Part shown: positions 1,882 through 14,532 of the stretch, piece by piece
How positions within the stretch are numbered: the stretch's first letter is position 1
How the letters are laid out: each line of letters begins with the position of its first letter
Assembly (NCBI GenBank): GCA_003044455.1
Contig: POWY01000003.1
Coordinates: 62,001-126,000, forward strand
Reading direction: 5' to 3'
DNA from: Neisseria bergeri
GTDB lineage: Bacteria > Pseudomonadota > Gammaproteobacteria > Burkholderiales > Neisseriaceae
DNA: 64,000 bases
The notes under the pieces: model-generated
What the model was told of the DNA's origin: nothing
Database searches by the model: none
What the model saw: only the letters and a program-made list of their open reading frames with translations
Position numbers and translations under genes: made by a program

Positions 1882-3897
1882 ATGAAATCCTACCCCGACC
1901 CCTACCGCCATTTTGAAAACCTCGATTCCGCCGAAACGCAAAACTTCGCTGCTGAAGCGAATGCCGAAACGCGTGCGCGTTTTTTGGAAAACGACAAAGC
2001 ACGCGAATTGTCTGACGGCATTTTGGCGCAGATGCAGGACACACGGCAGATTCCGTTTTGTCAGGAACACCGCGCGCGGATGTACCATTTTCATCAGGAT
2101 GCGGAATATCCGAAGGGCGTGTACCGCGTATGTACCGCGGCGACTTACCGTTCCGGCTATCCTGAGTGGAAAATCCTGTTTTCAGTGGCGGATTTCGACG
2201 AGCTGCTCTGCGATGATGTGTATTTGGGCGGCGTGTCGCACTTGGTGGAAAAGCCCAACCGCGCGTTATTAACACTGAGCAAATCGGGCGGCGATACGGC
2301 GTACACGCTGGAAGTGGACTTGGAAGCAGGAAAGTTGGTAGAAGGCGGGTTTCACTTTCCGGCAGGCAAAAACCATGTGTCGTGGCGCGATGAAAACAGC
2401 GTGTGGGTGTGTCCGGCTTGGGACGAACGCCAGTTGACCGAATCGGGCTATCCGCGCGAAGTATGGCTGGTGGAGCGCGGCAAAAGTTTCGAGGAAAGCC
2501 TGCCGGTGTATCAAATTGCTGAAGACGGCATGATGGTGAACGCGTGGCGTTACCTCGATCCGCAGGGTTCGCCGATTGATTTGATTGAAGCGTCTGACGG
2601 TTTTTACACCAAAACCTATTTGCAGGTCTCAGCCGAAGGCGAAGCGAAACCGTTAAACCTGCCCAACGATTGCGACGTGGTCGGCTATCTGGCGGGGCAC
2701 CTGTTGCTGACCTTGCGTAAAGACTGGCACCGCGCGAACCAAAGCTATCCGAGCGGCGCGTTGGTGGCGGTGAAGCTGAATCGGGGCGAACTCGGGGCGG
2801 CGCAGCTTTTGTTTGCGCCCGATGAAACGCAGGCATTGGAAAGCGTGGAAACGACCAAGCGTTTTGTGGTGGCGAGCCTGCTGGAAAACGTACAAGGCTG
2901 TCTGAAAGCGTGGCGCTTTGCCGGCGGCAAATGGCAGGAAGTCGAACTGCCGCGCCTGCCTTCGGGCGCGTTGGAAATGACCGACCAACCGTGGGGCGGC
3001 GATGTGGTTTACCTTGCCGCCAGCGATTTTACCACGCCGCTGACGCTGTTTGCGCTGGATTTGAACGTGATGGAACTGACCGTCATGCGCCGCCAGCCGC
3101 AGCAGTTTGTTTCAGACGGCATCGAAGTGCGGCAGTTTTGGGCGACTTCGGCCGACGGCGAGCGCATCCCTTATTTCCACGTCGGCAAAAACGCCGCGCC
3201 CGACACGCCGACGCTGGTTTATGCCTACGGCGGTTTCGGCGTACCCGAGTTGCCGCATTATCTGGGCAACATCGGCAAATACTGGTTGGAAGAGGGCAAC
3301 GCCTTCGTGTTGGCGAACATACGCGGCGGCGGTGAGTTCGGCCCGCGCTGGCATCAGGCGGCGCAGGGAATCAGCAAACACAAAAGCGTCGATGATTTGC
3401 TTGCCGTCGTGCGCGATTTGTCCGAACGCGGCATGAGTTCGCCCAAACACATCGGTTTGCAGGGCGGCAGCAACGGCGGCCTGATTACCGCCGCCGCCTT
3501 CGTGCGCGAACCGCAAAGCATCGGCGCGCTGGTGTGCGAAGTGCCGCTGACCGACATGATCCGTTATCCGCTGCTGTCCGCCGGCGCAAGCTGGACGGAC
3601 GAATACGGCAATCCGCAGAAATACGAAGTCTGCAAACGCTGGCTGGGCGAATTGTCGCCGTATCACAATCTTTCAGACGGCATCGATTATCCGCCCGCAC
3701 TCATTACCACCAGCCTCAGCGACGACCGCGTCCATCCCGCCCACGCGCTCAAGTTCTACGCCAAACTGCGCGAAACCTCGGCGCAATCTTGGCTCTACTC
3801 GCCTGACGGCGGCGGCCATACCGGCAACGGCACGCAGCGCAAATCCGCCGACGAACTCGCCTGCGTACTGCTGTTTTTGAAAGAGTTTTTGGGGTAA
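1882..3897 (+). CDS. Prolyl oligopeptidase family serine peptidase (S9)
   Basis: 671 aa, matching the S9A family length. The N-terminal two thirds would form the beta-propeller and the C-terminal third the alpha/beta hydrolase. The nucleophile motif GGSNGG lies near residue 530, the catalytic Asp is in SLSDDRVHP (about 614) and the His in DGGGHTGNG (about 646), so the triad is complete. No signal peptide is visible, so it is probably a cytoplasmic peptidase cleaving short peptides after proline or a similar residue. It is monocistronic between two inverted-repeat terminators. Confidence 0.9.
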   Translation: MKSYPDPYRHFENLDSAETQNFAAEANAETRARFLENDKARELSDGILAQMQDTRQIPFCQEHRARMYHFHQDAEYPKGVYRVCTAATYRSGYPEWKILFSVADFDELLCDDVYLGGVSHLVEKPNRALLTLSKSGGDTAYTLEVDLEAGKLVEGGFHFPAGKNHVSWRDENSVWVCPAWDERQLTESGYPREVWLVERGKSFEESLPVYQIAEDGMMVNAWRYLDPQGSPIDLIEASDGFYTKTYLQVSAEGEAKPLNLPNDCDVVGYLAGHLLLTLRKDWHRANQSYPSGALVAVKLNRGELGAAQLLFAPDETQALESVETTKRFVVASLLENVQGCLKAWRFAGGKWQEVELPRLPSGALEMTDQPWGGDVVYLAASDFTTPLTLFALDLNVMELTVMRRQPQQFVSDGIEVRQFWATSADGERIPYFHVGKNAAPDTPTLVYAYGGFGVPELPHYLGNIGKYWLEEGNAFVLANIRGGGEFGPRWHQAAQGISKHKSVDDLLAVVRDLSERGMSSPKHIGLQGGSNGGLITAAAFVREPQSIGALVCEVPLTDMIRYPLLSAGASWTDEYGNPQKYEVCKRWLGELSPYHNLSDGIDYPPALITTSLSDDRVHPAHALKFYAKLRETSAQSWLYSPDGGGHTGNGTQRKSADELACVLLFLKEFLG

Positions 3898-3927
3898 GGG
3901 CGGGTAGCGACACTGCTGCCGCGAATG

Positions 3928-3972
3928 AAAAAAGGTCGTCTGAAACTGCTTTTTCAGACGACCTTTTTTAAT
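3928..3972 (+). terminator. Terminator built from a foreign DUS dialect
   Basis: Strong hairpin with poly-T tail. The left arm reads AGGTCGTCTGAA, which matches the AG-mucDUS dialect of N. mucosa-group species rather than the gonococcal ATGCCGTCTGAA. It lies at the left edge of the Dnd island. Confidence 0.75.
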
Positions 3973-4010
3973 GGTTGTTTCAAATCAAAATATCTATGCC
4001 GCCGGCCCCA

Positions 4011-4201
4011 TCAGCACTTCTTCACATCCGAAGGCAAAAATCCGTAATGCCGTCTGAACGCTTCATTGAACCGTCCCGCGTGGCGGTAGCCGCAAAAGTG
4101 CATGGCGGCTTGGACGGTGCTGCCCGATTCGATGAGGGCGAGCGCGTGTTCCAGCCGCAGGCGGCGCAGGCGTCCGGCGACGGTTTCGCCGGTTTGGCGA
4201 T
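4011..4201 (-). pseudogene. C-terminal fragment of an AraC-family regulator
   Basis: Translating the minus strand gives the second helix-turn-helix of an AraC/XylS regulator (LRRLRLEHALALIESGS, then CGYRHAGRFNEAFRRHYGF) ending DVKKC and a stop at 4011. Only about 63 codons remain. Upstream the reading frame is lost at the junction with the start of an IS1106-like transposase gene (about 4201). It is a remnant and has no ligand-binding domain. Confidence 0.8.
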
Positions 4202-4300
4202 CATGGCTTGCGCGGTTTGCCGGAAGAAGGTGCTCATGGGAAACCCCCTAAATGTCTTGGTGGGAATTTAGGGGATTTTGGGGAATTTTGCAAAGGTCTC
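4201..4300 (-). mobile_element. IS1106-like (IS5 family) left-end remnant
   Basis: The terminal repeat GAGACCTTTGCAAAATTCCC reads inward from 4300. It is followed by the transposase start at 4237, encoding MSTFFRQTAQAMIAK, which I recognise as the N-terminus of the neisserial IS1106-type transposase. After about 15 codons the sequence switches to the AraC fragment, so the rest of the element is deleted. Confidence 0.75.
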
Positions 4301-4310
4301 ATTTGGTCAT

Positions 4311-4371
4311 AAAAAACTGCACCTTGTGAGTTTTTTGGGGGGGAATCCAACTTTTGGGGTGCAGTTCAAAG
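4311..4371. mobile_element. IS3-like terminus remnant
   Basis: Contains CCAACTTTTGGGGTGCAGTT and an imperfect opposite copy AACTGCACCTTGTGAGTT. This resembles IS3-family terminal repeats (reverse strand ACTGCACCCCAAAAGTTGG). There is no transposase left. It includes a short G7 run. Confidence 0.4.
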
Positions 4372-4415
4372 TTCTCAGATGGTCTGTTAGACTATGCAAA
4401 GGATGGTTGAACAAA

Positions 4416-6002
4416 TTATACGTTATACCCGTGCAGAAACCGTGCCACTCCATTGTTCCATTTGACCAGGTGGTCGCCTTTGGTCGTCAGGTTTTCAGCA
4501 CCGCGCTCGCCCAAGATAATCTCGGAAGACTGGCGTTTGCCTGTTTTCAGTGCGATTTTGGTCGGCAGATTGTCGCGAAAGCGGCCGCTGAGTGTTTTCG
4601 CATCGGGGCGTTGCGTTGCCAACAGCAGATACATTCCTGCGGAGCGCGCTTTTTTTGCCAGCCGTACCAAATGCCCTTCCGCTTCACTGCTGACATCGAT
4701 AAGGTCGGCCAGTTCGTCAATCACGATAACAATATATTTCGGGCGGACGGGCTGCGGGACTTCCGCAATATCCTTCGCACCGTATTCGTCCATCAGACGG
4801 TATCGTTTATCCATCTCGTCAGTAAAAAACGACAATATTTCAGCAGCTTCTCCCACATCGCTGACTATGCGCCCCTGCCATAAATTCGGACGGTCTTTGA
4901 AGGCGGCGAAATCCGCAGAAACTTTGCAATAACACACGGCAATCTCCGTTTCATCCTGCGGGGCGAGTTCGAACAGGGAAGCCAGCATCGAGCGCGCCAG
5001 TACCGATTTTCCCGCCCCCGTTTCCCCACCCACCATCACATGCGGCGCGGTGGCGAAATCTTGAAATACGGGTTCGCCGCGTTCGTCCAAGCCGATACAC
5101 ACGGGCAGTTTGAACTGCCGTGCCGATGCGCGGTATTGCTGCAAGGCCGTCTGAAACTCATCTTGCCCATATTGCCGCCAGGTATCTTGCGGACGCAGGA
5201 TGTTGATGTGCCAGGTGTTGGCTTCGCCGCGTATGCGTCCGCAGCGCATTTCGTCATCGCCGATGCCTAATTCGGAGCAGATTTGGCTGTGATATTTTTC
5301 CAAATCCACATAGCGGTCGAACTGCACGCGCAGGCAGTCGTAGCGCACGCCGCCGTATTCCGGCTGTATCGTACCGCCTTTGCCGACTGTTTTGTCCAGT
5401 GCTGTTTTGAGTTTGGTGCAGGCTGCATCGAGTGTCCCGACATTTTCTGCGTGAAGGCCGTCTGAAAAAGAATTCCCCCCCGTGCTGTGCCGTCCGATGC
5501 TGTTTTTAACGGCCAATTCGGCCAATTCGTTCAAAAAGGTCTGCCGTTGTGCCAAATCGTCATCGGGTTTGAATTGTCTGCAACATTCCCAAAACGCATG
5601 CAAACCAAGCGCGCCGGTATGCCACAGGTCGGCAATCAGTTTGTACAGATCATCTTTTCCCGCCGGTTTTCCTTGCCTGATGTGGAACAGGGTCTCGCTC
5701 AGCAGAGCGAGCCACAGCCGCGAATGGTCTTGAAAGCAGGTTTGGAAAGAAGGGATGTCGATGCCTTTGGTATCGGGGGCGGCAGTCAAATTTTCCGGCC
5801 GGCGAGCCCATCCTTTGGCAAAGCAATAGCCGATACAGAGTGCCGCCCAGTCGTAGTTGTTGTCCAAATGCGGCAGCGCACCTGCGTGGGTGAGTTTTTC
5901 GCGTATGGTTTTGGCTTCACTGCTGGAAATAATGTGTTTGTCGCTAATCAGGGTATGGAAATAGTCGGAATCCCACCGGCGGTTGTCTGGCAGCAGATAC
6001 AT
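4416..6002 (-). CDS. FtsK/SpoIIIE-type ATPase of the Dnd operon, possible DndE-like N-terminus
   Basis: 528 aa. The C-terminal half is an FtsK-type motor: a LGIGDDEMRCGRI-like alpha/beta lead-in, Walker A GGETGAGKSV (about residues 333-342), Walker B YIVIVIDELADL, then the FtsK-typical LLLATQRPD and GDHLVKW motifs. No gamma (KOPS-reading) domain follows and there is no membrane segment, so this is not the cell-division FtsK. The N-terminal ~190 residues include a small helical stretch (residues 25-65) that could correspond to DndE, the nicked-DNA-binding Dnd subunit; that match is weak and is my inference. The gene starts 13 bp after dndD, so it is the last gene of the operon. It probably supplies DNA translocation or loading for phosphorothioate modification. 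Confidence 0.8.
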   Translation of the reverse strand: MYLLPDNRRWDSDYFHTLISDKHIISSSEAKTIREKLTHAGALPHLDNNYDWAALCIGYCFAKGWARRPENLTAAPDTKGIDIPSFQTCFQDHSRLWLALLSETLFHIRQGKPAGKDDLYKLIADLWHTGALGLHAFWECCRQFKPDDDLAQRQTFLNELAELAVKNSIGRHSTGGNSFSDGLHAENVGTLDAACTKLKTALDKTVGKGGTIQPEYGGVRYDCLRVQFDRYVDLEKYHSQICSELGIGDDEMRCGRIRGEANTWHINILRPQDTWRQYGQDEFQTALQQYRASARQFKLPVCIGLDERGEPVFQDFATAPHVMVGGETGAGKSVLARSMLASLFELAPQDETEIAVCYCKVSADFAAFKDRPNLWQGRIVSDVGEAAEILSFFTDEMDKRYRLMDEYGAKDIAEVPQPVRPKYIVIVIDELADLIDVSSEAEGHLVRLAKKARSAGMYLLLATQRPDAKTLSGRFRDNLPTKIALKTGKRQSSEIILGERGAENLTTKGDHLVKWNNGVARFLHGYNV

Positions 6003-6015
6003 ATTGTTCCTTTAA

Positions 6016-8061
6016 TTATTCAAAATAAACATCGGCGGTTACGCGTGAAGATGCGCCCGCGCTGTCCAACGATTCGGCCTCCACCAGATAGGTGCGGCCG
6101 ATGTGCGGGTCGAGGCGGCGGTACACTTCGGGAGTAATTTCGGTGTCCTGCGACAGCAAAATCACCTGCTGTTCCAGCCCGCTCCAATGCTTGAACAAAC
6201 CTTCGCGGTGGCCTTCGTCCAAGCGCGCCAGCGGGGTATCGATCATGAATGGGGCGGGATAACGGGTAACTTCCGCCAATGCCGACACCAGCGACATAAT
6301 CAGAATCTGCATTTGGCCGGCCGACAAATCGACCTGCGCTTCCCTGCCGTCACGACCATAAAGCCCCATCCTGCCGTCGGCTTCGATGCTGATTTTGTGG
6401 ATGCGGTCATCGTGTGCAATGGCGAGGTTGATGCGGGTAGCGGTTTCACCGATTTCACCCGCCTTCTGCCGCATTAGCGCCTCGGTCAATGCGGCAATGA
6501 CTTTTTCTACCTGTCCCGCACGGCGCGACTTTACCATCTGCGGGTTGCTGTCGCTGATTTTGTCTTGCAGTTTGCTGACTTCGTCCTTCTTGCGCCGGCA
6601 TTCTTTTTCTTTTTCCAACACGTTGCTTTTCAGGCTGCCCGAACGTTCTTTAAATATATCGGCCTGCTTGTTCGCCTGTTTGAGCTGTTCCACCAGTTCG
6701 TCCTTGTTACTGCCTTTGAGCAGTTCCAACTCTTCCAAAACGTGTTTTTGTTCGCGCCGCCGCTGTTCGATATCGGCCAGCAGGCTGCCTATCCTGCCTT
6801 GCAGCATACCCTGTAGGCGGCTGATTTCGTTTTGGATTTCGGCATGGGCGTTTTTCGAGAGATAGTTGTGCTCGATAGTTTCGGCGCAATCTTCAGGCAA
6901 CGGGTAAAATAATTCGTTCCAGCATTCGGCCACCGCTTCCTTCATCAGCGGATCTTCCAAAATGGCGCAAGCCGAACGCCCCAATACTTCTTTAACTTTG
7001 CCGCTGCCGACAAACGCGCTCCAAAAATCGTTTACCCGTCCCGCAATCTGCTCCCTGCCGGCTTCGTGGTGCAGGCGGTTGGCTTCGCGTTCGAGTTTGA
7101 TTTTTAGCGCGTTCAGGCCGTCTGAAGGCAGGAAGGCCAGCGGCATGGCTTTAACCGCCGCTTTGACCTTCGCATTGAAATCGTCCATTTCCTTCTCCAG
7201 CCGTTCCCGCTGCATCAGCAAATCCTGCGAAGTGCGGATGTCGCTGCCGCCGCCGATCTGCTGTTGCAGCCTGCTCCTTTCCGCATCCCAATGCGCCCAT
7301 TCCTGTTGTACTTTTTCCCATTCTTCACGGAATACATCATATTGCGCTTGGGCAGAAGTCAATGCGCTTTCGGCTTTGTCCAAGTCTTCCTGCATCTTTT
7401 TGCCCGCGTTTTCGGAAATGCAGCGTTTGCGGTAATCGCCAAGGCTGTCTGCAAGCCGTGTCAGCAGGGTTACGCCCAACAGGCCTTTCAGGGCGTTGTT
7501 GAGCCACATGCCCGTGCCGCTGCGTTCGGCAGCCTGCACGATTTTTTCGCCGTCAAAAAAGAAAAACGGCGCATAATCGAACGGCAGGGCGTAAGTGTTG
7601 AGATATTTGTCCAATTCGGCAAAATCGACGGGCAGGTAGCGGTCGTCAACCAGCACGTCTGCCCGTGTTTCGGTGCTTTCGCGTTCAAACTGCCTTTTCT
7701 CATTGAAATGCCATTTCCGACGGATTTTCAGGCCGCAAATCTTACCTTGCCGCCGTTGGCGGATTTCAATTTCCAGCTCGATACGGTATCGGCCGTATTG
7801 CGGCACGGCTTTGTGATGCAGGGCAGCCTGCAAGAAATTCGGGTAATTGACATCTTTGCTGTTCAAGCCTGCCCGCTGCAAATGGCTGACCGCGTCCGCG
7901 TCATACAGGCACAGGTAAACCGCTTCCAACAAAGTGGTTTTGCCATGCCCGTTCATCGCGCCGATTAAAACAATGTTCTGCCCGTTTTTCGGTTCGGGAA
8001 AGGAAAATGCCGCTTCTTGGTAGGATTTGAAATTAAGCAGCCTGATTGAATGTATCCACAT
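6016..8061 (-). CDS. dndD: DNA sulfur modification protein DndD (SMC-like ATPase)
   Basis: About 681 aa from the ATG at 8061; an in-frame alternative start lies 4 codons upstream. Walker A is IGAMNGHGKTTLLEA (near residue 35), the ABC signature is VDLSAGQMQ and Walker B is PFMIDTPLARLD near the C-terminus. The long middle (about 200-520) is charged and heptad-like, a coiled coil with a QQQ-rich start. This is the Rad50/SMC-like plan of DndD, which powers sulfur insertion together with DndC and DndE. The start lies 2 bp after the stop of the 72-aa gene, so the genes are coupled. It contains one uptake sequence of the AG dialect at 7115-7126. Confidence 0.9.
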   Translation of the reverse strand: MWIHSIRLLNFKSYQEAAFSFPEPKNGQNIVLIGAMNGHGKTTLLEAVYLCLYDADAVSHLQRAGLNSKDVNYPNFLQAALHHKAVPQYGRYRIELEIEIRQRRQGKICGLKIRRKWHFNEKRQFERESTETRADVLVDDRYLPVDFAELDKYLNTYALPFDYAPFFFFDGEKIVQAAERSGTGMWLNNALKGLLGVTLLTRLADSLGDYRKRCISENAGKKMQEDLDKAESALTSAQAQYDVFREEWEKVQQEWAHWDAERSRLQQQIGGGSDIRTSQDLLMQRERLEKEMDDFNAKVKAAVKAMPLAFLPSDGLNALKIKLEREANRLHHEAGREQIAGRVNDFWSAFVGSGKVKEVLGRSACAILEDPLMKEAVAECWNELFYPLPEDCAETIEHNYLSKNAHAEIQNEISRLQGMLQGRIGSLLADIEQRRREQKHVLEELELLKGSNKDELVEQLKQANKQADIFKERSGSLKSNVLEKEKECRRKKDEVSKLQDKISDSNPQMVKSRRAGQVEKVIAALTEALMRQKAGEIGETATRINLAIAHDDRIHKISIEADGRMGLYGRDGREAQVDLSAGQMQILIMSLVSALAEVTRYPAPFMIDTPLARLDEGHREGLFKHWSGLEQQVILLSQDTEITPEVYRRLDPHIGRTYLVEAESLDSAGASSRVTADVYFE

Positions 8062-8063
8062 AT

Positions 8064-8282
8064 TCAGCCCCAATATTTCCTGTTTTCAAAAACTTCATCG
8101 AATACATCGGTCATACCGCGTTTGCGGATCCGTTCCTGTTGTTCGCGCTCCCATGCCGCCAAATCGGCCAGCACATCGGGCGATACACCGTGCCCGGCAG
8201 CAATTTCCTCCATCAGGTTTCGGGCATTTTTATCACTCCACAGCAGCAAATCAGCCACCTGTTCCTGTGTTTCCGTCTTCAT
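8064..8282 (-). CDS. Small protein of the DNA-modification operon
   Basis: 72 aa, acidic, with an aromatic C-terminus (FENRKYWG). It overlaps the end of dndC by 32 bp and ends 2 bp before dndD, so it is co-translated with both. Small proteins of this size are recurrent in Dnd-type clusters, where they are named only by association; I do not recognise a function. The strict overlap argues that it is a real subunit or regulator rather than a chance ORF. Confidence 0.75.
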   Translation of the reverse strand: MKTETQEQVADLLLWSDKNARNLMEEIAAGHGVSPDVLADLAAWEREQQERIRKRGMTDVFDEVFENRKYWG

Positions 8283-9396
8283 TTTTATTCCTTGAGTAAG
8301 TGTTAATCAGGTCTTCCGTCCAAATCTGCTTGATTAGGTCGATTTCGTCCTGCGAAATCAGTTCTTCGCCGAAAGCAGCCTGCACTTCCAGCAGCTTCGC
8401 CAGCATTTCCTGCCGCGCCGCGATGGTGAATGGGCCGGGGATGTGTTTTCCACCTTTGAACGTGAGTTTTCCGTTGCGCCGTTCGGCCTGGCGGTATTCG
8501 GGTTTGTTGCGGATGTCTACCAGCCAGTCGCGGTATTCAATTAACGGTGCAAATTCGGTTTTCCCCGCATCCACAAATCCTTGCAGGCTTCTATCTTTAT
8601 TGACCACCGTACACGTCCAACAGCCGAAACGGCTGGAATTGGTGCCGCAACCGGGGGCTTCTTCCTGCGACAGTACAATCGGGCATTCGCCGCCGGCAGC
8701 TTCGCGGTAGAGCTTGATTAAGTCGTTGTGTGTGCCGCCCCAGGGAGGGTCGTTGGCAGCAAGGAATTCCCACACGTCGTCGGTACTCAAATCGGCAATT
8801 GGTCGGTACACCAACGCGTTTTTCAAATCGCCGTGCGGGGTCAGATTGCTGTTTTCCAAGTTTTGGTGGCTTTCAATACTGGCCTTGCGGGTGGCAGATT
8901 CGTCTTTGCGTACGCCCAGTACAATGATGGCTTTGCCGTTTTCGTTTACTTTTTGCAGGATGTAGCCGCTGGTGGGTTGGATTTTCAGGCGGTCGGTACA
9001 CCAGCGCATCGAGCGGTTGGGCGTGGGGTAGCCTTTGCCGATGAGTAGCGTCCAAAACGTGTCCTGCAATTTCGGCACGGTGATTTCACCGCTGACGGGC
9101 AGCCTGAAAATTTCGGCGGCGCGCAGAATTTCTGCCAATGCACTGCGCATGTGTTTCACCACCAGCGGGCTTTCCACCAGCGTATCGTTAGAAACGAAGA
9201 ACACCTGCCGCGTCCGCAGCATCGGCGGCAGCGAAAGCAGCATATCAAATACCAAATGGGCGACAAGGGTGCTGTCCTTGCCACCTGAAAAGGTAACAAT
9301 CCAAGGATAGTGTTGTGTTTCGCTCAAATATTCTTCAGCGATGTTTTGGCGTATAGCGTCGAACGGGTTGGCAGAATATATGGGTATTACGGTCAT
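8251..9396 (-). CDS. dndC: DNA phosphorothioation protein DndC (PAPS-reductase-like)
   Basis: About 381 aa from the ATG at 9396. The PP-loop SGGKDSTLVAH lies near residue 40 (ATP pyrophosphatase, as in PAPS reductase). A cysteine cluster (GCGTNSSRFGCWTC, about residues 225-240) fits the iron-sulfur cluster of DndC. DndC activates the DNA backbone and passes on sulfur delivered by a cysteine desulfurase. No dndA is nearby, so a housekeeping IscS probably serves, as in other dndA-less systems. It is the first gene of the leftward operon and divergent from an XRE regulator. Confidence 0.92.
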   Translation of the reverse strand: MTVIPIYSANPFDAIRQNIAEEYLSETQHYPWIVTFSGGKDSTLVAHLVFDMLLSLPPMLRTRQVFFVSNDTLVESPLVVKHMRSALAEILRAAEIFRLPVSGEITVPKLQDTFWTLLIGKGYPTPNRSMRWCTDRLKIQPTSGYILQKVNENGKAIIVLGVRKDESATRKASIESHQNLENSNLTPHGDLKNALVYRPIADLSTDDVWEFLAANDPPWGGTHNDLIKLYREAAGGECPIVLSQEEAPGCGTNSSRFGCWTCTVVNKDRSLQGFVDAGKTEFAPLIEYRDWLVDIRNKPEYRQAERRNGKLTFKGGKHIPGPFTIAARQEMLAKLLEVQAAFGEELISQDEIDLIKQIWTEDLINTYSRNKNEDGNTGTGG

Positions 9397-9462
9397 TTTA
9401 TGAATATTTCTTATTTGCACCTAAAACAGGTTCAGGCGTGATTGTACCTAGAATCGGAGCGC

Positions 9463-9714
9463 ATGGGAAATATTCGTTTGTCGGTACACTCTGTCGAACA
9501 CACCTATTTGCGACAACTCCTTATCCGCAGAAGATTGGATTTGGGGTTGTCGCAGCGCGCATTGGCGGAACGGATGAATGTGGTGCATTCGTTCGTGGGA
9601 AAGGTGGAAACTGGGGACAGGCGGCTGGATATATTTGAATTTATCGAATACTGTCGAGCTTTGGATTGGGATACGTCTGAGGTAGTTCGGGGTTTGCAGG
9701 AGGGCTCGGTATGA
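9463..9714 (+). CDS. XRE-family transcriptional regulator next to dndC
   Basis: About 83 aa from the ATG at 9463 (GGAG 4 bp upstream); a TTG at 9442 would add 7 codons. Helix-turn-helix of the Cro/CI type (LGLSQRALAERMNVVHSFVGKVETGDRR, residues ~28-55). It sits divergently, 66 bp from the dndC start, and its stop overlaps the next ORF (TATGA). It probably controls the dnd operon and the linked gene, much like the controller protein of a restriction-modification system. That role is inferred from position. Confidence 0.8.
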   Translation: MGNIRLSVHSVEHTYLRQLLIRRRLDLGLSQRALAERMNVVHSFVGKVETGDRRLDIFEFIEYCRALDWDTSEVVRGLQEGSV

Positions 9715-9935
9715 CGGATTTACCGGTCTTGTTGAAATATGCAGAACAATTTCGAGGGCTGCATACCAATTTTACTTATGCGCAAAAGCAGTCACCGCAC
9801 AAATTTATTTTGCTGTACAGCCTGTGTCTTCTATATGCTTCAGGTAGTTTGAGAACAGAGCAGATTAAATTTTCTGACGAATTGTTAATTGAATGGCAGA
9901 TGGAGACCTTTGCAAAATTCCCCAAAATCCCCTAA
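9711..9935 (+). pseudogene. N-terminal stub of a probable Dnd-linked restriction gene
   Basis: 74 codons starting at an ATG that overlaps the regulator stop. The sequence APHK-like 'SPHKFILLYSLCLLY' followed by 'GSLRTEQIKFSDELL' resembles the leader of HNH/PT-dependent endonucleases (pattern: apHK..lLL....l...G.i..n.i.....L). The last codons (FAKFPKIP) are read from the IS1106-like end at 9903, so the gene is truncated there and any nuclease domain is missing. The family match is an inference from a short region. Confidence 0.55.
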
Positions 9936-9984
9936 ATTCCCACCAAGACATTGAGGGGATTTTGGGGAATTTTGCAAAGGTCTC
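9903..9984. mobile_element. Internally deleted IS1106-like element (82 bp, both termini)
   Basis: About 31 bp of perfect terminal inverted repeat (GAGACCTTTGCAAAATTCCC outward on both sides) enclose only ~20 bp. The left part continues like the 5' end of the remnant at 4201-4300; the right part is the other terminus. It bounds the Dnd island on the right and truncates the gene before it. Confidence 0.75.
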
Positions 9985-10007
9985 AGCCTTTTATTTATAA
10001 AACGGAT

Positions 10008-13849: not shown

Positions 13850-14212
13850 ATGCGGATATTCAAAAACCAATGGATAGTGAAATTTGCCAAGAAACATAAA
13901 ATCAGTGATTCCGAGCTGCTGGAAGCGGTAGAGCGGGCGGATAACGGACTGACAGATGCAGACCTTGGCGGCGGCGTGATTAAGCAGCGCATAGCACGGC
14001 AAGGGCAAGGCAGAAGCGGCGGTTATCGCAGCCTGATACTGTTCAAACAGGCAGATAGGGCATTTTTCGTTTATGCCTTTGCCAAGAACGATCGTGAAAA
14101 CATTTCAGATAAAGAACTGGCAGCACTGAAAGACTTGGCACGGTATGCCACCAAGTGCAACAAGCAGGAGCTTGAAGCCCTGATTATCAAAATGGATTTA
14201 CAGGAGATTTGA
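13850..14212 (+). CDS. RelE/ParE-family toxin
   Basis: 120 aa. It resembles the RelE-type toxins formerly called DUF1044: a basic middle (KQRIARQGQGRSGGYRSLILFK) and FFVYAFAKNDRENIS, then a helical tail. It would act as a ribosome-dependent mRNA interferase or similar growth inhibitor in the cytoplasm. The following gene is a helix-turn-helix antitoxin; toxin-first order is typical of HigBA-like pairs. It has a good upstream -10. Confidence 0.85.
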   Translation: MRIFKNQWIVKFAKKHKISDSELLEAVERADNGLTDADLGGGVIKQRIARQGQGRSGGYRSLILFKQADRAFFVYAFAKNDRENISDKELAALKDLARYATKCNKQELEALIIKMDLQEI

Positions 14213-14214
14213 AA

Positions 14215-14532
14215 ATGGAACGGAAATATAAAAGCGAGCTAAGCGGCGTAATCCACGAAATGGCAACCGCATTGCACGACATCGGCGCAATCGACAAAAA
14301 AACTATGCGCGGCTTTAACAAGTCCTGCCTGACTGAAATCAGACCCTTGAGTGGCGAAGACATCAAGGCAATCAGGGAGAAGGAGGCACTATCGCAAGCC
14401 GCTTTCGCCATCTATCTCAACGTGGGGAAAAACCACGTTTCGGCTTGGGAGAGGGGCGTTAAAAAGCCAAGCGGCGCGGCGTTGAAGCTGCTGACCATCG
14501 TCAAAAACAAGGGCATCGAAGCCATTGCGTAA
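14215..14532 (+). CDS. XRE-family antitoxin (HigA-like)
   Basis: 105 aa from the ATG at 14215, with CAGGAG 8 bp upstream, 2 bp after the toxin stop. The N-terminal half is a linker that would bind toxin. The C-terminal half is a Cro/CI helix-turn-helix (IREKEALSQAAFAIYLNVGKNHVSAWERG...PSGAALKLL). It should neutralise the toxin and repress the pair. Confidence 0.85.
   Translation: MERKYKSELSGVIHEMATALHDIGAIDKKTMRGFNKSCLTEIRPLSGEDIKAIREKEALSQAAFAIYLNVGKNHVSAWERGVKKPSGAALKLLTIVKNKGIEAIA

Follow-up and report, generated by a model that had tools for sequence, protein, structure and literature searches.

The DNA analysed here (64,000 nucleotides of a Neisseria bergeri contig, hereafter the window) carries a Dnd-type operon whose last gene encodes a 528-aa protein with an FtsK core, which raises the question of whether a DNA motor has been placed on the modification side of a phosphorothioate (PT) system and what it might do there. 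With a probability of about 0.7, the locus is read as an operon for PT modification of DNA that belongs to an already published subset of Dnd systems, the DndE–FtsK subset, in which, according to the sections of PMC10853773 (Rakesh, Aravind and Krishnan 2024) consulted, a HerA/FtsK domain is fused to DndE next to a DndD-related ATPase, the same architecture as here. The PT chemistry itself is predicted from gene content.

Gene content of the operon

The four reading frames called in the first-pass annotation (DndC, a 72-aa protein, DndD and the 528-aa protein) were recovered at their positions, all on the minus strand. DndC (8251..9396) is a sulfurtransferase of the PP-loop type (SGGKDS) that retains the conserved Cys set but lacks the C-terminal domain (TIGR03183, 367.9 bits against a cut-off of 290.4); its start is placed at the ATG at 9396, the longest open frame beginning at the GTG at 9420. 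The 72-aa protein (8064..8282) belongs to Sp-DndD (PF20306, 52.9 bits against 27.2) and is the probable detached C-terminal domain of DndC, a relationship for which no earlier report was found in the open-access literature. DndD (6016..8073) is an ABC/SMC-type ATPase of 681-685 aa, with a likely ATG start at 8061, and passes its model only marginally (TIGR03185, 247.2 bits against 245.85). Its best PADLOC models are those of PbeC, above the DndD models, which recalls the CxC-type ATPase of PbeABCD; this label was rejected, since the zinc-hook cysteines (CxxC or CxC) are absent from the window's DndD and from all 14 DndD sequences (0/14). The 528-aa gene (4416..6002), identified from reading frame, Pfam and fold, follows after the 13 bp first reported.

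In line with the first-pass annotation, no separate dndA or dndB gene turned up at the locus. The DndB model (TIGR03233) has no match in the own genome, and among 83 genomes of the family it gives a single match, below cut-off; DndB occurs in 52% of the taxa having a Dnd system, as given in the part of PMC10853773 consulted, and is thus not required. IscS, which can substitute for DndA (PMC11662687), has a single match in the whole genome (TIGR02006, 777.8 bits), on a different contig from the operon. A search for DndFGH with the single model TIGR03238 gave one match below cut-off (19.5 bits against 50). The operon resembles the canonical DndABCDE and IscS-DndBCDE systems in DndC, DndD, the DndE fold and the availability of IscS, while differing from them in the absence of DndB, the fusion of DndE to a motor and the splitting of DndC.

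DndE half and motor half of the 528-aa protein

The protein divides into a DndE domain (residues 1-165; 5508..6002), a linker (residues 166-212; 5367..5507; pLDDT below 50 at 167-189) and an FtsK alpha and ATPase motor part (residues 213-528; 4416..5366), all read from the minus strand. As a fold search with the whole protein is filled by motor matches, the N-terminus was folded alone. The AlphaFold2 model of residues 1-171 (pLDDT 90.2, pTM 0.87) is a tandem ribbon-helix-helix fold, with the strand-helix-helix element twice, a long core helix (116-144) and a C-terminal helix (149-168); two strand-helix-helix elements with a C-terminal helix form the order described for DndE in the text consulted of PMC10853773. 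Structure comparison gave Z 11.1 against 7x4e (rmsd 2.5 A, 113 aligned residues) and Z 10.2 against each of the DndE entries 5wtu and 4lrv; only DndE entries lie above Z 2.5, the value of the best unrelated entry.

The sequence signal of DndE is weak (best Foldseek E 0.045), and the two sequence-model checks of the N-terminus diverged: Pfam DndE (PF08870) has no match in the 528-aa protein at E 0.5 and none in the own genome, and a PDB sequence search returned nothing, whereas a profile of the Neisseria DndE half compared with five stand-alone DndE proteins scored 29.0, a value reached by none of 200 column-shuffled decoys (best 18.1). Among fused relatives outside the Neisseriaceae, nine match PF08870 at E 0.001 and eight of these exceed the cut-off; one protein of about 500 aa (L051) passes the DndE (31.9 bits, cut-off 25), FtsK_alpha and FtsK_SpoIIIE cut-offs together. 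A PF08870 match at L049/L059 falls in an unrelated 179-aa frame and was dropped as chance. The direct profile match between the Neisseria half and the other fused family was likewise rejected, 65 of 200 decoys scoring as high, and the kinship of the two is drawn from the motor and gene order that they share and from the DndE signal that each of them gives. A phage origin found no backing in 50,697 phage records, where the N-domain has no match at E 0.01.

Given the DndE fold and the profile match, 'fused to' DndE holds and 'in place of' does not: no separate dndE gene was identified in the operon, but the N-terminal domain of the last protein is DndE, and the 528-aa protein is, on these computed comparisons, a DndE fused to an FtsK motor. 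The architecture had been called unusual; the fusion is there, yet it is already published for a Dnd subset, although in the parts of PMC10853773 consulted no Neisseria, split DndC, motor exchange in DndE fusions, solitary sulfur-binding domain or AriA/AriB was found.

The motor half gives 97.5 bits with PF01580 (FtsK_SpoIIIE; cut-off 24), in keeping with the FtsK core first reported, and contains Walker A and B, the sensor Gln, the Arg finger and the alpha domain; K332/S333 of Walker A, E430, R453 and Q464 are invariant in 12 of 12 proteins. The protein stops at the motor, and its Pfam matches contain no gamma-domain model. The motor may assemble into a hexameric ring and translocate DNA.

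To our knowledge, translocases in PT systems (DndFGH) belong to the restriction side, and a motor on the modification subunit would be unusual, if true. It is conceivable, though unlikely, that the motor serves restriction: like the FtsK/HerA domain of DndH or SspH it would engage invading DNA, with DndE anchoring it at unmodified sites and the operon acting as a self-contained system for exclusion. SspH is indeed the best PADLOC model for the motor (3.8e-42), related proteobacterial operons end with a PARIS-like AriA/AriB effector pair (9 of 10 loci), and pumping alone might block entry. Set against this, residues 182-528 adopt an FtsK motor fold that is far closer to cellular FtsK (Z 31.4) than to DndH-C (7es4, Z 17.7); moreover, DndFGH and SspFGH, while sharing an FtsK/HerA motor in a PT-linked system, carry it in a large subunit that also bears a nuclease domain, whereas here the 528-aa protein has no recognised nuclease, none was found in the Neisseria operon, and the motor sits on a modification subunit.

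Co-inheritance and exchange of parts

A survey of genomes for the gene order found the operon in 18 of 83 Neisseriaceae genomes, with the fusion gene open in 15 and the order DndC–Sp–DndD–fusion constant across the operons compared. Pairwise identities were correlated after exclusion of L105 (DndD in two frames) and of the broken operons of G007, G016 and G020; the set contains L023, in which DndC and Sp are missing and DndD is partial and which was omitted from the DndD tree as well, and L029, whose DndC is partial, while L066, L067, L068, L070, L071 and L069, being by their equal lengths the same contigs as L024, L027, L031, L029, L023 and L104, were counted once. DndE correlates with DndD at r 0.97 (n=15 operons) and with Sp at r 0.93 (n=14); the correlation between DndE and its own motor is low at r 0.35 (n=15), but nonzero (permutation p 0.003). 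Furthermore, the motor data reject a DndD-supported clade (p-AU 5.7e-7), and the DndE data reject the motor clade (p-AU 3.8e-9) and not the DndD clade (0.22).

Individual pairs display the exchange directly. L021 and L022 hold the operon at the same site and differ mainly in a block of about 2.9 kb ending in the DndE/motor linker, its right-hand breakpoint lying in the stretch that matches the linker. In G013 and G037, which share a chromosomal site, DndC and motor are 98-99% identical at the protein level and Sp–DndD–DndE only 36-46%; in the pairs L022/L103 and L024/L025, the block is common and the motor different. Sp, DndD and the DndE half are a co-inherited unit, and the motor swaps independently of this recognition half. 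No earlier report of independent motor exchange within DndE fusions was found in the open-access literature; the portion of PMC10853773 consulted describes co-evolution of DndE and DndD and repeated capture of different HerA/FtsK motors by DndH, which provides a precedent.

Neisseria are naturally competent, and the mosaic could be only a trace of frequent transformation, in which case the blocks would lack functional unity and a breakpoint in the linker would be incidental; this explanation is considered doubtful. With the motor at the 3' end of the operon, any tract reaching in from the flank would exchange it, and DNA uptake sequence (DUS) words occur in the linker, including a 10-bp word at 5457 in the window. 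However, the block exchanged between L021 and L022 is internal, with near-identical DNA on either side, and across the full set the correlations among Sp, DndD and DndE are 0.92-0.97, against 0.35 for two halves of one protein. The idea that DUS words produced the breakpoint in the linker was rejected, as just 3 of the 12 scanned operons (those of the window, L026 and L029) have them there.

In a PT-modification operon of this kind, the housekeeping IscS would supply sulfur to DndC and Sp, acting as a split DndC, while DndD and the DndE domain, with Sp one co-inherited unit, would recognise the target. The FtsK motor behind DndE might then form its ring on double-stranded DNA, moving the DNA or moving along it, and this motion could let the DndD/DndE/DndC complex scan for and modify sites. 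The motor can be exchanged: motor halves recombine at the linker, and do so separately from the recognition unit. Tentatively, and at rather less than even odds, these elements may be combined into a plug-in machine: Sp, DndD and the DndE half would form a cartridge setting the PT motif, the HTH regulator described below and DndC would stay constant, and the motor, exchangeable at the linker, would be the component pressed to vary, perhaps by inhibitors from phages or plasmids, with Sp, as a C-terminal domain of DndC that has come loose and travels with the cartridge, coupling a given DndD and DndE to the shared DndC. Variation in DndE is proposed to underlie Dnd site choice (PMC10853773, in the part consulted). 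If the Sp–DndD–DndE block sets specificity, the PT motifs of G013 and G037 should differ, and the pairs L022/L103 and L024/L025 allow the motor's job to be compared with the block held constant. The open-access literature searched yielded no measurement of PT in these strains.

Sulfur-binding-domain neighbours, flanks and probable regulation

In some relatives, an intact, solitary 158-aa protein adjoins the operon. It is a sulfur-binding-domain homologue, matching SBDHga1 (8h0l) over residues 6-148 (E 5.7e-12; E 1.5e-16 for the homologue in L117), and may bind PT-DNA and so read the mark in these relatives. Like the ScoMcrA-type domains, it has a His-Lys pair and, close to the position of the cavity, a Pro (as judged by eye); unlike them, it is solitary, with no second domain recognised in its frame. 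A Pfam scan at E 0.1 found no family, and the idea of a fused nuclease was rejected, as the matching frames span only 84-230 aa. Such genes occur in 9 of 18 operon carriers and 1 of 65 non-carriers, a count that takes no account of shared ancestry and in which some copies are truncated or look damaged (window, G015) and one carrier has a broken operon (G020). Neither this neighbour nor the AriA/AriB pair was found reported in this context in the open-access literature. That DndC performs another modification and the mark is not phosphorothioate is very improbable, for although PMC10853773, in the sections consulted, argues for other modifications in some DndD–DndE systems lacking DndC, DndC is present here, over its curated cut-off and with PP-loop and Cys positions invariant relative to canonical DndC, and a sulfur-binding-domain protein adjoins the operon in relatives.

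In the window, only about the first 64 residues of the sulfur-binding-domain protein remain (9711..9935, plus strand), the gene being cut at a dispersed palindromic repeat (9903..9990) of which a left copy lies at 4241..4295 on the minus strand. The inserted segment spans 3893..10006, its flanks lying about 60 bp apart in G039 and G022. Divergent from the operon, a HTH regulator resembling restriction-modification control proteins (9442..9714, plus strand; PDLC03666, E 1.5e-6) is read as 90 aa from a TTG, the ATG at 9463 being the more likely start. A candidate operator between the divergent starts (9416..9462), partly judged by eye, comprises a palindrome of the TGCACC-N7-GGTGCA type, imperfect here, at 9416-9434 and a second imperfect copy at about 9443-9462, through which transcription in both directions is probably under the control of the HTH protein.

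The operon and its fused protein

The four genes lie on the minus strand, where the first-pass annotation had placed them, as DndC (8251-9396), the 72-residue small protein Sp (8064-8282), DndD (6016-8073) and a 528-residue DndE–FtsK fusion (4416-6002), and family models back the names DndC, DndD and FtsK-like. The suspicion that the N-terminus of the 528-aa protein holds a DndE-like fold was borne out by structure comparison and by profile scoring. For the first 171 residues by themselves, an alignment of 17 rows, with the other fused group (below) excluded, gave a model with a pLDDT of 90.2; among the 560 chains aligned to it, 17 had a Z of at least 5 and the entries above Z 2.5 were DndE only, and the top five Foldseek rows were likewise all DndE (best E 0.045). 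Against five stand-alone DndE sequences, the profile of the DndE half scored 29.0 (best of 200 shuffles, 18.1; reversed profile, 18.0). For the full-length protein, the AlphaFold2 model had a mean pLDDT of 75.4, and an FtsK motor on DNA (6t8b) aligned to its residues 182-528 (Z 31.4, 335 aligned, rmsd 3.5), with the alpha domain within the aligned motor; fold comparison found the gamma domain absent from this motor.

A DndE–FtsK fusion adjoining DndD is already described in PMC10853773. Its fusion to a modification subunit suggests that the motor acts in modification. The rival reading gives it a DndH-like role in exclusion; DndH itself is described in the same paper as having captured different FtsK/HerA motors repeatedly.

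The family's DndC ends at a point beyond which canonical DndC runs for about 85 residues or more. Against the corresponding C-terminal stretch of DndC in the other fused group, the Sp profile scored 28.4, a score equalled by 0 of 200 shuffles (best 23.9), with an E of 6.7e-5 over 43 columns, so Sp is probably the detached C-terminal domain of DndC.

Divergent to the operon, and beyond the 4416-9396 covered by the first-pass annotation, lies an HTH gene (9442-9714) whose product is similar to R-M control proteins (PDLC03666, E 1.5e-6); this gene is found in 11 of the 15 family genomes with an open fused gene, and a 74-aa frame starts behind the window's copy. A possible palindromic operator (9416-9462) between the HTH and DndC starts was recognised by sequence comparison, partly by eye. 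A TGCACC-N7-GGTGCA-type palindrome, perfect or imperfect, occurs in 11/11 such intergenic stretches (the window and 10 relatives), and a second, weaker copy in 10/11, being missing from locus L024; the imperfect copies (the window's among them) and all second copies were judged by eye.

Exchange of modules within the operon

Over 15 operons (14 for DndC and Sp), five parts were correlated in their pairwise identities: DndC, Sp, DndD and the two halves of the fused protein, DndE and motor. Pearson r over 105 pairs was 0.97 for DndD–DndE and 0.35 for both DndE–motor and DndD–motor; over 91 pairs, the divergence of Sp tracked DndE (0.93) and DndD (0.92) more than DndC (0.58), with 0.58 for DndC–DndE and 0.54 for DndC–motor. 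Without loci L021, L023, L026 and L072, r was 0.98 for DndD–DndE and 0.25 for DndE–motor. All ten correlations were above chance in permutations (p <=0.003), and the motor is thus loosened, not free.

Single pairs of operons give examples. The window and L022 share 95% identity in DndC and 94% in the motor, with 44% in Sp, 38% in DndD and 35% in DndE; L022 and L103 share 95, 90, 90 and 98% in DndC, Sp, DndD and DndE and 44% in the motor, and L024 and L025 share 85, 75, 86 and 84% and, in the motor, 48%. L021 and L022 carry the operon at a common chromosomal site, and their DNA is 98-100% identical over the HTH gene, most of DndC and the motor (exceptions: one DndC window, 89%, and the first motor window, 92%), whereas the approximately 2.9 kb between DndC and the motor are just 48-70% alike. 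This divergent block runs from the last DndC codons into the linker of the fused gene, where it stops at about codon 200.

The trees are concordant with the identity correlations on module exchange, the tested clades having been picked from one partition's tree and applied to another, not preset. Motor data reject {L024, L025, L026} (p-AU 5.7e-7) and {L022, L103} (6e-66), both clades from DndD, and DndD data reject {window, L021, L022} (5.4e-10) and {L024, L029, L031, L103} (2e-67). With DndE data, {window, L021, L022, L023} is rejected (3.8e-9), {L024, L025, L026} is not (0.22), and {L022, L103} is grouped without support (58/0). PMC10853773 proposes that the target is recognised by DndD and DndE, which evolve together as partners, and the swap data support this from another angle.

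Within the motor, DUS words recur at codon 285 of the fused gene for the window, L021 and L022, and at 286 for L029; in three operons, others lie near codons 175-187, in the linker.

Occurrence, insertion site and sulfur-binding genes

Of 46 genomes of the genus Neisseria, 12 match the fused protein over its full length and three (G007, G016, G020) have a broken match; across the family, the DndE half was matched in 18/83 genomes, 15 of them with an open frame of at least 527 aa. The gene order first noticed in the window recurs, with all four genes, in 13 of these 15 (window counted), one of which (G033) has a DndC match without the first 100 residues, where the PP-loop would be. In G031 the contig holds just DndD and the fusion, with DndC (named by eye) on another contig beside a sulfur-binding-domain (SBD) gene; in G356 DndD is split over two frames, and position alone identifies the small gene. 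The same four genes occur on one Bacteroidota MAG contig (L072), and the Moraxella osloensis plasmid pSKB0120-5 (L125 9234-13043) carries a remnant comprising the end of DndD and a truncated fused gene, which breaks off before two transposase-like frames (named by eye). A weak DndB-like match was seen at L123 (G018:C1:1354575-1355096; 37.9 bits, cut-off 328), in a genome that gave no match to the DndE half.

In two operon-less relatives (G039, G022) some 60 bp separate the flanking genes, so 3893-10006 is an insertion; in other genomes the operon's neighbours differ. Two copies of a dispersed palindromic repeat (4241-4295 and 9903-9990), which has 23 matches in its own genome, many being both strands of a single copy, lie near the insertion ends, bracketing the operon and terminating the window's putative reader gene.

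That reader, a frame at 9711, covers the N-terminal ~64 residues of a protein that is open, at 158 aa, in L021, L022, G031 and L103. The intact protein has a match to the sulfur-binding domain SBDHga1 (8h0l, E 5.7e-12) and retains, by eye, a His-Lys pair and a Pro corresponding to ScoMcrA cavity residues, as described in PMC6224610. SBD-like genes occur in 9/18 carriers (three with a broken fused gene included) and 1/65 non-carriers (Fisher p 1.3e-6, in a test that ignores shared descent), five of the nine carriers having theirs at the operon and four at another place; among these copies, the window's is truncated and that of G015 looks damaged. Such genes lend independent, if indirect, support to phosphorothioate as the mark. 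Solitary SBD genes of 156-197 aa lie at separate chromosomal sites in L117, L118, L119 and L120, with no recognised nuclease found in the same frame; the L117 protein matches 8h0l.

Elsewhere in the window, two overlapping small frames (13850-14532), the second HTH-looking, resemble by eye a type II toxin-antitoxin pair.

A second fused group with AriA/AriB-like genes

Outside the family, a search of 398 genomes from the phylum showed a second fused group in 10. DndD precedes the fusion in 10/10 loci, and an AriA-like ATPase with an AriB-like DUF4435 protein (a PARIS-type pair) follows it in nine, all from other proteobacteria (L051 11527-13596; also L052, L054-L058, L060 and L106), as assigned by family models on L051 and by tblastn on the remaining loci; the tenth, L053, has no AriA/AriB match in the 1.7 kb of contig remaining past the fusion. 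DndC is whole in five of the ten loci, in two pieces in one, damaged in two and beyond the contig end in two. Neither these companions of DndE::FtsK operons nor a split DndC, motor exchange at the linker of DndE fusions or a solitary reader was found in the open-access literature searched. A DndE-model search of 299 genomes gave 15 matches, namely nine second-group fusions (eight over the cut-off), five stand-alone DndE and one chance match.
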